Shown here in pieces: positions 23,382-27,509 of a stretch of DNA of 64,000 bases (within the stretch, counting starts at the first letter, position 1; every line of letters starts with the position of its first letter). Made by a program: the position numbers and the translations under genes. Under the pieces are notes generated by a model, which searched no databases, was not told the DNA's origin, and saw nothing but the letters and a program-made list of their open reading frames with translations. Source of the DNA: Fibrella aestuarina BUZ 2 (GTDB lineage: Bacteria; Bacteroidota; Bacteroidia; Cytophagales; Spirosomataceae); assembly GCF_000331105.1 (NCBI RefSeq), contig NC_020054.1:1229698-1293697 (forward strand). The letters are read 5' to 3'.

Positions 23382-25994
23382 ATGCATTCTCTACCCCGCA
23401 ATGCAATTCGCAATGCGCTTGGCAGCCTGTTGCTACTAGGCCTTGCCGTACCCATGCTGGCCCAACGGCGGCCCAGCGCGCCCACCTCTTCATCAACGGC
23501 TTCGGTCACGACCACCCCGGCGTCAAGCACCGCCTCACCAACCGCCGCCGGCCCGCCCCGTACGCCCATCAAACCCTACCGGGAAGTGATCACCAAAGCG
23601 GCCAAAACCAGCCGTGGCCTGTTCACGGCCCACCAGATCGACGATAAATACTACCTCGAAATCGCGGATTCGCTGCTGGGTCGTGAGTTTATGGCCATCA
23701 CCCGTATCGCCAAAGCGCCCACCGGCGCGGGCTACGGCGGCGAACTGGCCAACCGGCAGGTGCTTCGCTGGGAGCGCGGCCCCGACCGTCGGCTGTTGCT
23801 GCGCGTAGTAAGCTACATCAACGTCGGCACGGCCGGGGGCGATACGTTGCCTATTTCGCAGGCCGTACGCAACTCCAACGTGGAGCCGATTGCCGCTGCC
23901 TTCGACATCCGGGCGATCCGCAAAGATTCGTCGTCGGTCATTGACGTGACTGATTTTTTCCGGAATGACAATCAGATCGTATCGCTGACCCCCGCGACCA
24001 AATTCCGCTACCGGATTACCGCCGCCGCCACCGACCGCTCGTTTATCCAGACGATCCGGTCGTTTCCGATCAATACGGAAGTGCGCGTAACCCGCACGTT
24101 CAGTGTGAATACCGCCCCCACGCCGCCTTCGCCCACGCCTTCGCCGCTACCCACGGTTAGCCTGCCGGGCGGAAGCGACGCCGGTGCCGTCACGATGGAA
24201 CTGAACGTATCGATGATTCTGCTCCCGAGAGATCCCATGCGCAAACGCCTGTTCGACTCGCGCGTCGGCTTCTTTGCGTCGAACTACACCGTTTACGACG
24301 ATAATTCGCAACGCACCGAAGACGAGACGTTTGCCGTACGGTGGCGCCTCGAAGCCAAGTCGGACGCCGACGCCGAGCGCCAGAAGCGTGGCGAACTGAT
24401 CGAGCCCAAGAAGCCGATCGTGTATTATATCGACCCGGCTACGCCCTACAAATGGCGCTCATTCCTGAAAGCAGGTGTGGCCGACTGGCAGAAGGCCTTC
24501 GAGAAAGCTGGCTGGAAAAACGCGATCATGGCCAAAGATTGGGATCTGCGCGATACTACGATGAGCCTCGAAGACGCCCGGTATTCAGTCATCCGGTACT
24601 TCGCGTCAGACATTGAAAATGCCTACGGCCCCAACGTTCACGACCCGCGCTCGGGTGAGATTATCGAAAGCCATATTGGCTGGTACCACAACGTCATGAA
24701 CCTGCTGCGGAAGTGGTATGTGGTGCAGGGAGCGGCCGTTGATGCCCGCGCCCGCAAGCCCAAGTTCGATGATGAATTGATGGGACAACTCGTTCGGTTT
24801 GTGTCGAGCCATGAGGTTGGTCACACACTAGGCCTGCGCCATAACTTCGGTTCAAGCCACGCGACACCGGTCGAGAAGCTGCGCGATAAGGCCTTCATCG
24901 CCCAGAATGGGCATACAGCGTCGATCATGGACTACGCCCGGTTCAACTACGTAGCCCAGCCCGAAGACGGCATCACCGACCTATTCCCGCGCATCGGCAC
25001 TTACGACATCTGGGCCATCGAGTGGGGCTATAAGCCGGTTTATGACACCAAAGACGCTACGGCTGACAAACTGGTGCTGAACAAGATGGTGCAGAGCCAC
25101 GCCAATGACCCACGTTACTGGTTCGGGACCGAAATCAACCCGATGGACCCCCGTTCGCAGAGCGAAGACCTGGGCGACAATGCCATGAAGGCGAGTGAAT
25201 ATGGCATCAAAAACCTGAAGCGTATTCTGCCCAACCTCCCCGAGTGGACGCGTGAAGAGGCCGAAGACTACGATAAGCTGCGGGAGATGTACGGTGAAAT
25301 TGTTGGCCAATTCCGGCGGTACATGGGCCACGTAACGAAGTATGTGGGCGGCATTTACGAGACACCACGTACCTACGATCAGGCGGGCATTGTCTACGAA
25401 CCAACCCCGCGTGCGCTTCAAAAGGAAGCGATGACGTTCCTGAATACGCAGCTATTCCAGACGCCGACGTGGCTACTCAACGCCAAGATTATGCCGCTGG
25501 TACGCGCCGATCAGGGTGTCGACTACGTACGAACATTGCAGGAAACAACGCTGAACAGTCTCATGGACGTGGGCCGGTTGTCGCGTCTGATCGAAACGGG
25601 TTCGGGCAGCCTCGGCAAAGGCGGCTACACGCTGATCGAGTTTATGGCTGACTTGCAAAACGGCATCTACAGCGAGTTGGGCTCGGGTAAGGCAATCGAC
25701 ATTTACCGGCGCAATCTGCAAAAAGCCTACGCCGAGAAGCTGATTGCGGTATTGAACACGCCCGCCTCATCGGGTGCCGGAGCGGCGCCGTCCAGTGGCG
25801 CGGGGTTCCGGTTCAACCCCGGCCCCGTGACCGATATCCGCAAATCGGATATCATGTCGGTGGTTCGTGGTCAACTGGTTAGCCTGCAACGAAGCATCGC
25901 TTCGGCGCTACCTCGGCAGACCGACACCATGAGCAAGTATCACCTAGCCGACGTGCAGGCCCGTATCCAGAATGCGCTGGATCCGAAGAAGTAA
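23382..25994 (+). CDS. Secreted zinc metalloprotease, DUF5117/DUF5118/DUF4953 type
   Basis: 870 residues with a signal peptide ending near VPMLAQ, then a Ser/Thr/Pro/Ala-rich linker of about 35 residues. The mature protein follows the DUF5118-DUF5117-DUF4953 order of this Bacteroidota metalloprotease family. The zinc motif HEVGHTLGLRH begins at His477, a metzincin-like HExxHxxGxxH with the third His ligand, followed by HNFGSSHA and a SIMDYARFNY Met-turn-like segment. It is presumably periplasmic or secreted. The natural substrate is unknown. It sits after the A2M gene, a class of protease trap, but no cotranscription is evident. Confidence 0.92.
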   Translation: MHSLPRNAIRNALGSLLLLGLAVPMLAQRRPSAPTSSSTASVTTTPASSTASPTAAGPPRTPIKPYREVITKAAKTSRGLFTAHQIDDKYYLEIADSLLGREFMAITRIAKAPTGAGYGGELANRQVLRWERGPDRRLLLRVVSYINVGTAGGDTLPISQAVRNSNVEPIAAAFDIRAIRKDSSSVIDVTDFFRNDNQIVSLTPATKFRYRITAAATDRSFIQTIRSFPINTEVRVTRTFSVNTAPTPPSPTPSPLPTVSLPGGSDAGAVTMELNVSMILLPRDPMRKRLFDSRVGFFASNYTVYDDNSQRTEDETFAVRWRLEAKSDADAERQKRGELIEPKKPIVYYIDPATPYKWRSFLKAGVADWQKAFEKAGWKNAIMAKDWDLRDTTMSLEDARYSVIRYFASDIENAYGPNVHDPRSGEIIESHIGWYHNVMNLLRKWYVVQGAAVDARARKPKFDDELMGQLVRFVSSHEVGHTLGLRHNFGSSHATPVEKLRDKAFIAQNGHTASIMDYARFNYVAQPEDGITDLFPRIGTYDIWAIEWGYKPVYDTKDATADKLVLNKMVQSHANDPRYWFGTEINPMDPRSQSEDLGDNAMKASEYGIKNLKRILPNLPEWTREEAEDYDKLREMYGEIVGQFRRYMGHVTKYVGGIYETPRTYDQAGIVYEPTPRALQKEAMTFLNTQLFQTPTWLLNAKIMPLVRADQGVDYVRTLQETTLNSLMDVGRLSRLIETGSGSLGKGGYTLIEFMADLQNGIYSELGSGKAIDIYRRNLQKAYAEKLIAVLNTPASSGAGAAPSSGAGFRFNPGPVTDIRKSDIMSVVRGQLVSLQRSIASALPRQTDTMSKYHLADVQARIQNALDPKK

Positions 25995-25999
25995 GTTTG

Positions 26000-26096
26000 A
26001 ATGCACAATGTATGATGTACAATGCACAATGGTCGCCTACCCGAAAAAATCTTGCCTAGGCGACCATTGTGCATTGTACATCATACATTGTGCATT
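26000..26096. repeat. Perfect 40-bp inverted repeat
   Basis: Arms 26000-26039 and 26057-26096 are exact reverse complements, with a 17-nt loop. The arm contains the internal direct repeat ATGCACAATG. It starts 6 nt after the protease stop, so it can act as a terminator. Its right arm also supplies the -33 region of the next promoter. Confidence 0.9.
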
Positions 26097-26103
26097 ATAT
26101 TTG
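26074..26103 (+). promoter_or_regulatory. Promoter of the split tRNA-Pro / GIY-YIG locus
   Basis: TTG (26074-26076), 19-nt spacer, TATATTTG (26096-26103), a textbook Bacteroidota promoter. The predicted start is about 5 nt before the first copy of the tRNA 5' half, the position expected of the original tRNA-Pro promoter. Confidence 0.75.
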
Positions 26104-26110
26104 CACTCCC

Positions 26111-26140
26111 ATTCGGGATGTAGCGCAGTCCGGTAGCGTG
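26111..26140 (+). repeat. Duplicated 5' half of tRNA-Pro (30-bp direct repeat, copy 1)
   Basis: These 30 bases are identical to 26415-26444, which covers three bases before the complete tRNA-Pro and its first 27 bases. Copy 1 stops after the D-arm and is followed by TCCCGCCA, which can pair with the CGGGA at the 5' end, so a tRNA-like acceptor stem may still form. Confidence 0.9.
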
Positions 26141-26164
26141 TCCCGCCATAGCGGGAAGGTCGGT

Positions 26165-26413
26165 ATGAGTTATGTTGTTTACATAGTTTATAGCGACTCG
26201 CTCCAGAAGTTCTACATTGGCCAAACTGTTCATCTGGGTCTTCGACTAGAGGAACATAATCGGGGAAAAGGCAATTTTACTGCTAAAGGCCACCCTTGGC
26301 GGCTGATTGCCAGCTTTAACTGTGAAACTAGAACTGAAGCCGTTCAACTTGAGTTGAAAATAAAAGGCAGAGGTGCTAAAAGATACTTGCAGGACATCGG
26401 CTTGCAGGAATAG
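26165..26413 (+). CDS. Minimal GIY-YIG nuclease-domain protein inserted in tRNA-Pro
   Basis: 82 residues consisting only of a GIY-YIG domain: YVVYIVYSD and FYIGQT form the two halves of the signature, LRLEEHNRG carries the conserved Arg, and a Glu follows in TRTEAVQLELKIKGR. Such small proteins relate to the UvrC N-terminal nuclease and to homing endonucleases; this one has no DNA-binding domain. The gene lies exactly between two copies of a 30-bp tRNA-Pro sequence, with its stop one base before copy 2. The 274-nt insert begins with a short hairpin (TCCCGC/GCGGGA). A self-mobilising or tRNA-targeting role is inference. Confidence 0.85.
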   Translation: MSYVVYIVYSDSLQKFYIGQTVHLGLRLEEHNRGKGNFTAKGHPWRLIASFNCETRTEAVQLELKIKGRGAKRYLQDIGLQE

Positions 26414-26417
26414 TATT

Positions 26418-26491
26418 CGGGATGTAGCGCAGTCCGGTAGCGTGCTTGCATGGGGTGCAAGAGGTCGTGGGTTCGAATCCCGCCTTCCCGA
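26418..26491 (+). tRNA. tRNA-Pro (anticodon GGG)
   Basis: A complete cloverleaf. The acceptor CGGGATG pairs with CTTCCCG (one U-U mismatch at pair 6-67). The anticodon stem CTTGC/GCAAG encloses ATGGGGT with anticodon GGG, and the T-arm is GTGGG-TTCGAAT-CCCGC. No CCA is encoded. Its only visible promoter lies 315 nt upstream, before the duplicated half and the GIY-YIG gene, so it is probably cut out of a joint transcript. Confidence 0.92.
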
Positions 26492-26492
26492 C

Positions 26493-26522
26493 AAAGCCAG
26501 TCAGCAATGACTGGCTTTTTTG
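26493..26522 (+). terminator. Terminator of tRNA-Pro
   Basis: An 11-bp stem (26493-26503 with 26508-26518), GCAA loop, then a T run. Confidence 0.85.
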
Positions 26523-26561
26523 TTGTTCGCATTTTAGCGATGCGCTCACAACGTACGGTGT

Positions 26562-27509
26562 CTATTGAGTTGACATAGGCTGTTCAGGTACGTTGATCGT
26601 ATCGGGTTGGCCGACGACCGAGAGTTGGAAAACATCGTGGCGGGCATAATGCCCCACGCAGTCGAAATCCAGTTTGCTTTTGACGAGTTCAGCAAAGTCC
26701 AGTTCGGCGGTCAATAAGCCTTCCTGATCCCAGAGTGGGCCGGCCAACACGTCACCCATCGGCGAAATAATGACGCTGCCACCCCGGCTCATGATGTCGG
26801 GTTCGTCGCGGATGGCTTCCTGATAGCGGTTGGGGTAATCGGCTTTGGTCACGAACTGATTGCTCGACAGCACGAAGCAGCGGCCTTCCAGGGCGATGTG
26901 CTGCATGGTCGCCTGCCAACTGGGGCGGGCGTCGGCGGTGGGGGCGAGGTAGATTTCTATGCCTTTCTGGTACAGAGCCGTTCGGGCGAGGGGCATGTAA
27001 TTTTCCCAACAGATCAGCCCGCCGATCTTACCCAGTCCAGTATTGAAACTAACGAGCGAACTACCATCGCTTTCACCCCAGATATACCGTTCGAGGCCTG
27101 TTGGTTTCAGCTTCCTGTGTTTGCCCAGCAGTCGGCCGTCGGGGCCGAAGTACAGCAGGCTACAATGGAGTGAGCCGCCCACCGGCTCACGCTCGGTAAC
27201 GCCCAGCGCGACGAACATACCCGAATGCCGCACGGCCTCGCCTATCCGGGTGACCTCGGGTGAATCAACCTCGACGCAGTTGGCCCAGAAATCCAGCCAC
27301 ATCGCCCGACTGGCCTCGGAACGTCGGCCAATGACCGCATCGAAACGCAGCCCGCGTGGATAGCAGGGAAGGAATGTTTCGGGAAATAGCAGCAATTGAC
27401 AGCCGGCGGCGGCTCCTTTTTCCAGCCACGCCAGCACTACCTCGACACTCTTCTCCAGATCAAACAGAACAGGGGTGGCCTGAACAACCCCTACTTTAAC
27501 GCGCTTCAT
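26562..27509 (-). CDS. Nitrilase (carbon-nitrogen hydrolase, branch 1)
   Basis: 315 residues from the ATG at 27509 (MKRVKVGVVQATPVLFD); the frame is open further upstream but those residues do not resemble the family. The catalytic triad is visible: Glu in LLFPETFLPCYPRG, Lys in GKHRKLKPTGLE and Cys in GGLICWENYMP. The Cys-Trp-Glu-Asn form is typical of true nitrilases, which turn nitriles into carboxylic acid and ammonia; amidase branches differ here. It is cytoplasmic, with no signal peptide. The substrate range cannot be told. It is transcribed toward the tRNA-Pro terminator. Confidence 0.9.
   Translation of the reverse strand: MKRVKVGVVQATPVLFDLEKSVEVVLAWLEKGAAAGCQLLLFPETFLPCYPRGLRFDAVIGRRSEASRAMWLDFWANCVEVDSPEVTRIGEAVRHSGMFVALGVTEREPVGGSLHCSLLYFGPDGRLLGKHRKLKPTGLERYIWGESDGSSLVSFNTGLGKIGGLICWENYMPLARTALYQKGIEIYLAPTADARPSWQATMQHIALEGRCFVLSSNQFVTKADYPNRYQEAIRDEPDIMSRGGSVIISPMGDVLAGPLWDQEGLLTAELDFAELVKSKLDFDCVGHYARHDVFQLSVVGQPDTINVPEQPMSTQ

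Follow-up and report, generated by a model that had tools for sequence, protein, structure and literature searches.

A unit of about 304 bp at a tRNA-Pro gene in the stretch of DNA analysed here (64,000 nucleotides; hereafter the window) probably represents a minimal mobile element of the homing type, found in Bacteroidota, which inserts into tRNA genes and restores them. Comparison with relatives shows an inserted unit by which the tRNA gene's promoter-bearing 5' part is cut off from the remainder; the unit contains a GC hairpin, the gene of a predicted nuclease consisting of a GIY-YIG domain only, and a terminal copy of the 5' part by which a complete tRNA is restored. A mirror form lies downstream of an intact tRNA and carries the displaced 3' part after the nuclease gene. 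If this reading is true, the cassette is among the smallest self-spreading bacterial elements (about 300 bp, with one protein of 82 aa), is widespread in a major phylum where it is lodged in essential tRNA genes without harm, and could account for many truncated tRNAs and small GIY-YIG genes. It would also be a bacterial counterpart of the mobile ORFs (mORFs) of fungal mitochondria and of phage SegB, and would make it testable how a catalytic domain without a separate DNA-binding domain finds one tRNA type.

Organization of the tRNA-Pro locus

Repeat comparison showed that positions 26111-26140 and 26415-26444 of the window are identical in 30 of 30 bp, and 30 identical bases at a spacing of 304 bp are far beyond chance. 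The preliminary description of this DNA, which placed an 82-residue GIY-YIG gene between two 30-bp copies of the tRNA-Pro 5' end, proved exact on this point. ARAGORN recognised the tRNA-Pro(ggg) at 26418-26492 as intact and made no tRNA call for the first copy (26111-26140). The locus is composed as follows:

26096..26103, + strand: TATATTTG, a motif of the presumed Bacteroidota-type -7 promoter form TAnnTTTG, found by eye
26111..26140, + strand: displaced 5' part of tRNA-Pro(GGG), comprising 3 leader bases and tRNA positions 1-27, from its 30/30 identity with 26415-26444
26141..26156, + strand: GC hairpin TCCCGC-CATA-GCGGGA at the expected start of the anticodon arm, from folding
26157..26162, + strand: AGGTCG, a remnant matching the tRNA variable region, read from the sequence
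26165..26413, + strand: gene of the 82-aa GIY-YIG nuclease, catalytic domain only (ATG at 26165; PF01541)
26415..26444, + strand: second copy of the 5' part, forming the start of the intact tRNA, from repeat identity
26418..26492, + strand: intact tRNA-Pro(GGG), with the same sequence as in the empty-site relatives compared (ARAGORN, sequence comparison)
26493..26518, + strand: terminator-like hairpin and T run 3' of the tRNA, from a sequence scan

The first copy follows the tRNA to position 27 and continues with the hairpin and then with AGGTCG, which in the intact tRNA likewise stands 3' of the anticodon arm; an anticodonless hairpin therefore sits exactly at the place of the anticodon arm. 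The motif TAnnTTTG, which we take to be the Bacteroidota-type -7 promoter consensus, was seen by eye before the first copy and not before the second, and the same motif precedes the tRNA at empty sites, in agreement with the earlier claim that the sole promoter of the tRNA lies upstream of the first copy. A sigma-70 promoter scan of the region was negative. Besides the GIY-YIG gene, the 304-bp unit offers no space for another gene, and no integrase was found inside it; a search for a group I intron core gave no intron family match at E ≤ 1 in 25990-26600.

Positions 26000-26096 of the window hold a perfect 40-bp inverted repeat of short words (AATGTACAATG-like), located 3' of the upstream gene, and similar palindromes of different sequence occur at the same place in two relatives (loci L002 and L005). 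Rfam microRNA matches at 25990-26118 were rejected, being due to a long palindrome and scoring below gathering.

Empty and filled sites in close relatives

The preliminary description had proposed the tRNA-Pro(GGG) locus of relatives as the place to look for an empty site and had held that relatives without any empty site would speak against a mobile cassette. The syntenic site is empty in all four other genomes of the window's genus, each of which has the same upstream gene (78-80% identical DNA), the TAnnTTTG motif and an identical tRNA-Pro(GGG). No relative of the window protein was found in these four genomes at E ≤ 1e-3, while the profile described below gave a weak match elsewhere in one of them (G004, free of the cassette; 1.8e-12). 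Next to its intact tRNA, on the 3' side, one of the four (L002) has a nuclease-free truncated tRNA with the hairpin TCCCGCTTTGGGCGGGA, which looks like a scar.

In the sister genus, two of 31 genomes (G139 and G550) carry the cassette at the same tRNA, 28 have the tRNA without the cassette, and for the incomplete genome G541 the tRNA search produced no good match. The window's upstream gene recurs in G139 at 80%, and the nuclease there shares 63% identity with the window's. The gap from the upstream gene to the tRNA is 72 bp in three cassette-free loci of this genus as against 378 bp in the filled locus of G139; since the stretch fetched for the other 25 of the 28 cassette-free loci did not show the upstream gene, the strictly syntenic empty sites of the sister genus number three. 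At the empty sites L002-L005, L260, L267 and L277, TAnnTTTG stands 11-12 bp before the tRNA.

The insert is one unit of 304, 306 or 305 bp that leaves the tRNA intact. At filled sites the promoter side remains with the displaced 5' part, and the rebuilt tRNA matches that of the empty sites exactly, the difference being confined to the flanks. Patchy presence with empty cognate sites, as expected of a free-standing homing endonuclease, is thereby found for this cassette.

Distribution of the arrangement across Bacteroidota

A profile built from 18 sequences, the window's included, was searched against 392 Bacteroidota genomes and matched 254 of them at E ≤ 1e-6, a figure that overstates the cassette because it includes weak matches unlinked to tRNA (1 of 28 linked). 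Loci with a tRNA no more than 300 bp away were confirmed for 72 genomes, which belong to 51 genera and 17 families. The loci studied further comprise 30 from the profile search (L084 being the window) and 80 from the best-scoring matches listed, and these 110 are not a random sample. A tRNA was present in the fetched stretch of 99 of these 110 high-scoring loci, within 300 bp of the nuclease in 98 and within 100 bp in 80, and the nearest tRNA was on the strand of the nuclease in all 99. The combination of a half tRNA and a GIY-YIG gene, for which the preliminary description had proposed a search at other tRNA genes, recurs at many tRNAs, which span 15 amino-acid types.

The tRNA lies downstream of the nuclease in 27 loci (the window's form) and upstream in 72 (the mirror form). 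A partial copy of the same tRNA was detected in 93 of the 99 loci, some of which may involve neighbouring tRNA genes (e.g., L126); in the loci read by eye, the copy is usually the 5' part in the window's form and the 3' part in the mirror form. On one strand, 28 of the 110 loci have at least two near-full nuclease matches (at least 180 nt each), and 36 have at least two same-strand matches when fragments are counted. Among the 11 loci without a called tRNA, four (L092, L116, L136, L193) show tRNA fragments on reading, two (L153, L154) lie in rnpB, and five (L093, L094, L152, L155, L165) abut contig ends.

Three comparisons indicate that the full arrangement belongs to one nuclease subfamily: (i) UvrC genes, sampled as 30 loci in 30 of these genomes, have a tRNA no farther than 300 bp away in 2 of 30 cases when distances are taken from the open frame, which is the fair figure, and in 0 of 30 when taken from the matched domain (the two distances are 225 and 42 bp, with L227 on the opposite and L243 on the same strand), and have any tRNA in their 1.5-kb flanks in 3 of 30; (ii) weak GIY-YIG profile matches, taken from 17 genomes chosen for their weak best matches, lie near a tRNA in 1 of 28 cases; (iii) partial tRNA copies are found in 0 of 18 loci of a side group that adjoins tRNA-Ala(GGC). 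This side group (L034-L053 without L037 and L040) is on the strand opposite to the tRNA in 15 of 18 loci and looks like a domesticated gene.

Some further arrangements were seen at these loci. In L115, L128 and L259, truncated tRNAs (Ile; Pro) that bear a hairpin stand in tandem with no intervening nuclease gene, the units measuring 102 bp in L259; they are possibly non-autonomous derivatives. In L031, an Rfam group I intron (2288-2541) follows two hairpin-bearing 5' parts of tRNA-Met at a distance of a few hundred bases and perhaps interrupts tRNA-Met itself. Partial tRNA-Pro ends away from the intact gene occur in L006 (about 1500; G003) and L019 (about 1520; G002), and resemble the attachment sites of ordinary integrated elements.

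A hairpin replaces one arm of the truncated tRNA

The sequence TCCCGCC after the first copy had been thought to re-form an acceptor-like stem. Folding instead gave a perfect local hairpin at the place of the anticodon arm (26141-26156), with a predicted local pair probability of 0.92-1.00 as against about 0.003 for the acceptor-like alternative, and no pairing with the acceptor strand. The cassette as originally conceived is retained in its tRNA-associated discrete unit, its tRNA rebuilt at the insertion end and its empty sites, and loses the acceptor-like stem.

A GC-rich hairpin instead of one tRNA arm is frequent in the truncated copies. By eye, it replaces the anticodon arm in Pro, Ala, Val, Lys, Gln and Met copies, stands in the D arm of some Ser copies, and in the T arm of Asp, Phe and one Ser copy. 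For the anticodon arm, 82 replaced segments were collected from 66 loci in which both flanks of the arm are recognisable in the truncated copy; this search was loose (two mismatches on each side), includes chance matches, and contains a few comparisons against an ARAGORN-called pseudo-tRNA (L054, L129). A stem of at least 5 bp was present in 64 of the 82 segments (58 loci), compared with a mean of 6.6 and a maximum of 14 in shuffles, and was missing in the other 18. Terminal stems of at least 6 were formed by 39 of 76 distinct segments with their own arms vs 4.5% with arms swapped between segments. The hairpins were of the types TCCCG..CGGGA (42 of 82), TGGCG.. (9) and [CT]T[CA]CGA.. (7), while 23 fitted none of these. 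No segment (0/82) had the anticodon at its proper place; the presence of the anticodon triplet anywhere in 35 of 82 segments was discarded as uninformative, because GGG and CGG belong to the hairpins themselves.

The nuclease consists of a GIY-YIG domain and tracks the tRNA type

The 82-aa protein has a single Pfam match, PF01541 (GIY-YIG; residues 3-72, E 8.5e-13, 48.8 bits vs a cut-off of 22.6), which places the predicted protein in the GIY-YIG nuclease superfamily, and no separate DNA-binding domain. Y6, Y17, G19, R27, H31 and E63, presumably including the catalytic residues, are invariant among 18 aligned sequences (the window's included). Among solved structures, the profile best matched UPF0213 (1zg2, E 7.9e-14), which we take to be COG2827, followed by SLX1 chains (3.8e-6 to 3e-5) and, weakly, I-TevI and UvrC. 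SLX1, I-TevI and UvrC are DNA-acting enzymes, SLX1 being structure-specific for branched DNA. To our knowledge, neither UPF0213/COG2827 nor SLX1 is known from tRNA cassettes; SLX1 has further domains and a partner, whereas the window protein has the GIY-YIG domain only. For a catalytic domain with no DNA-binding domain beside it, it is plausible that DNA structure is what the protein recognises.

The branching of a tree of 115 nucleases (from 98 of the 110 loci and 17 chosen by hand) agrees better with tRNA type than with host family: the tRNA type switches 33 times as against a shuffled mean of 73 (minimum 67 in 200 shuffles), and host family 58 times as against 84 (minimum 77). When each nuclease is paired with its nearest relative in a different host family, the two agree in tRNA type in 72 of 115 cases, compared with 17 by chance (maximum 34) and a maximum of 41 under permutation within families; for this test L129, whose tRNA-Cys call is a pseudo-tRNA-Pro, was relabelled Pro. 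The relatives show purifying selection, with dN/dS of 0.03-0.17 in seven pairs with dS up to 1.2; these seven, which do not include the window's own pair, come from 11 hand-picked, non-independent pairs, of which nine yielded a value and two of these had dS above 2. The low dN/dS and the isotype-tracking tree together imply that the lineages tested maintain the protein and that it is matched to its tRNA type. Broken copies of the nuclease also exist, e.g., with a frameshift in L066. No relative of the window protein was found in the phage collection at E ≤ 1e-3, and no phage or plasmid carriage in the phage and plasmid collections searched.

RNase P RNA as a second site

Of eight genomes of one genus, three (G203, G312 and G214) have a relative of the nuclease inside the RNase P RNA gene (L153, L154 and L318, respectively); it scores 89 bits with the profile in G203 and G312, and the G214 copy is 78% identical. 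The open reading frame fills the loop of a hairpin just 5' of the conserved GAGGAAAGTCCGG, which by position and on reading is P3. In L153 the arms flanking it form 19 pairs (predicted duplex -31.1 kcal/mol), and in L318 arms of different sequence are, on reading, again complementary. All three RNase P RNAs exceed the Rfam gathering cut-off, and the two loci checked for a duplicated part of this RNA showed none. This suggests that the niche is hairpins of structured RNA genes and not tRNAs alone. In all three loci, a coding gene resides within the RNA of an essential ribozyme.

Proposed mechanism and alternative explanations

A homing-type cycle could have produced these arrangements. The nuclease would open an arm in the gene of one tRNA type, and repair from a cassette-bearing copy would import the nuclease together with the missing tRNA part, so that the essential tRNA would survive. 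The hairpin that replaces the arm would stop the displaced copy from acting as a tRNA or as a target, and in the window the original tRNA promoter would drive a single transcript that includes both nuclease and tRNA. Tandem arrays and nuclease-free remnants would then arise by recombination between the repeated tRNA parts. We infer DNA cutting and mobility of the cassette, its repair-driven copying, and a self-immunity that would come through changed flanks or the swapped arm. However, the rebuilt tRNA is identical to the empty-site tRNA, which suggests that the presumed target is not destroyed and leaves self-immunity unexplained; it also counts against homing that there is no separate DNA-binding domain, although the lineages track tRNA type, and that no phage or plasmid carrier was found in the collections searched. 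The adherence of nuclease lineages to one tRNA type could instead reflect long vertical descent. Quite possible, if on the doubtful side, is a wider class of structure-guided elements, in which a GIY-YIG-only nuclease recognises hairpin arms (those of tRNAs, or P3 of RNase P RNA) and inserts next to or within them; the RNA gene would then be rebuilt, or else the insert would occupy a loop without doing harm, with the arm-swapped pseudo-RNA as a marker and each lineage attached to one RNA.

It is unlikely that the system acts on RNA, with the nuclease cleaving its cognate tRNA or the hairpin RNA as a toxin or as a stress or anti-phage switch, and the armless pseudo-tRNA on the same transcript serving as decoy, antidote or regulatory site. 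Nuclease lineages specific for a tRNA type would fit such a function, as would a pseudo-tRNA that keeps the flanking tRNA parts while its native arm is replaced (no anticodon in place in 82 segments) and a hairpin whose pairing is kept while its sequence changes (39/76 vs 4.5% with arms swapped). Nevertheless, the named profile relatives in solved structures, SLX1 and more weakly I-TevI and UvrC, act on DNA, we know of no RNA-cleaving GIY-YIG enzyme, and the patchy presence, discrete inserts and tandem arrays resemble mobility. Passive hitch-hiking, by which a vertically inherited nuclease stays beside tRNA genes and the repeats arise from ordinary recombination or slippage, is improbable and already disfavoured: while the tRNA-Ala side group (18 loci without a partial copy, 15 of them on the opposite strand) behaves as a domesticated gene would, partial tRNA copies accompany 93 of 99 main-group loci at 15 tRNA types, and close relatives have empty sites. 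We regard as very improbable that the nuclease is a gene-dosage device useful to the host, driving tandem amplification of its tRNA locus like SegB in phage T6, a precedent described in the accessible part of PMC13096335. Tandem arrays do reach five units (L032, L108), yet the arrays read (L032, L055, L108, L145 and L147) multiply the nuclease and truncated tRNAs, with one intact tRNA recognised in each.

Relation to known systems

The mORFs of fungal mitochondria, e.g., in Allomyces atp6 and in Glomus atp6, atp9, cox2 and nad3, are described in the accessible part of PMC3630166 as endonuclease genes that insert with a copy of the host gene's missing part and displace the native part, the atp9 mORF being of the GIY-YIG type. 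The cassette likewise carries part of its host gene, rebuilds the gene and displaces the native part. However, the host gene of the mORFs is protein-coding and mitochondrial, whereas that of the cassette is a tRNA gene in bacterial chromosomes. As far as the available text of that paper extends, the cassette further differs in its 82-aa nuclease, in the arm-replacing hairpin of the displaced part and in having both 5'-part and 3'-part forms. A foreign (divergent) carried part, a criterion of the fungal mORF type, is not seen in the window, whose two 30-bp copies are identical.

SegB of phages T4 and T6, a GIY-YIG homing endonuclease encoded beside tRNA genes, cuts inside them and drives tandem amplification of tRNA and nuclease (PMC13096335, accessible part). 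It resembles the cassette in that a GIY-YIG nuclease gene adjoins tRNA genes. In contrast to the cassette nuclease, which has no phage relative at E ≤ 1e-3 in the phage collection, SegB is phage-borne; the accessible part of the source reports no favoured isotype for it and does not mention truncated hairpin-bearing tRNAs, which the cassette has. A literature search that covered few subscription papers found no published description of tRNA-linked GIY-YIG cassettes in bacterial chromosomes. There is a real chance that the cassette forms a distinct class.

TCCCG palindromes elsewhere in the genomes

The window's hairpin was rejected as a genome-wide repeat of its genus: TCCCGC..GCGGGA was counted 4, 3, 1, 1 and 4 times vs 3, 1, 6, 3 and 0 times for backwards controls, the counts including the window's own hairpin and the L002 scar. 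TCCCG..CGGGA palindromes exceeded the backwards control in many of the Bacteroidota genomes tried. The form TCCCGA..TCGGGA is strong in several other families (e.g., G441, 32 vs 0; G413, 47 vs 2; G168, 37 vs 0), while in the window's family four of the five genomes tried showed no excess and G034 had 14 vs 3. That such palindromes are general products of the nuclease is unsupported, as the excess also occurs in some genomes without a profile match at E ≤ 1e-6 (43 vs 4 in G461, 23 vs 1 and 21 vs 2).

REP-type palindromes, as presented in the accessible part of PMC3733652, offer a comparison system. The likeness lies in the excess of TCCCG..CGGGA in many of the Bacteroidota genomes tried. Since the TCCCGC form seen in the window shows no excess within its genus, the TCCCGA form none in four of five genomes tried of its family, and palindromes are also frequent where the profile has no match, they are not simply this cassette. 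The rnpB gene of G441 contains a TCCCG palindrome (L257, about 1501), and in L119 and L037 some TCCCGA..TCGGGA palindromes are nested in one another.
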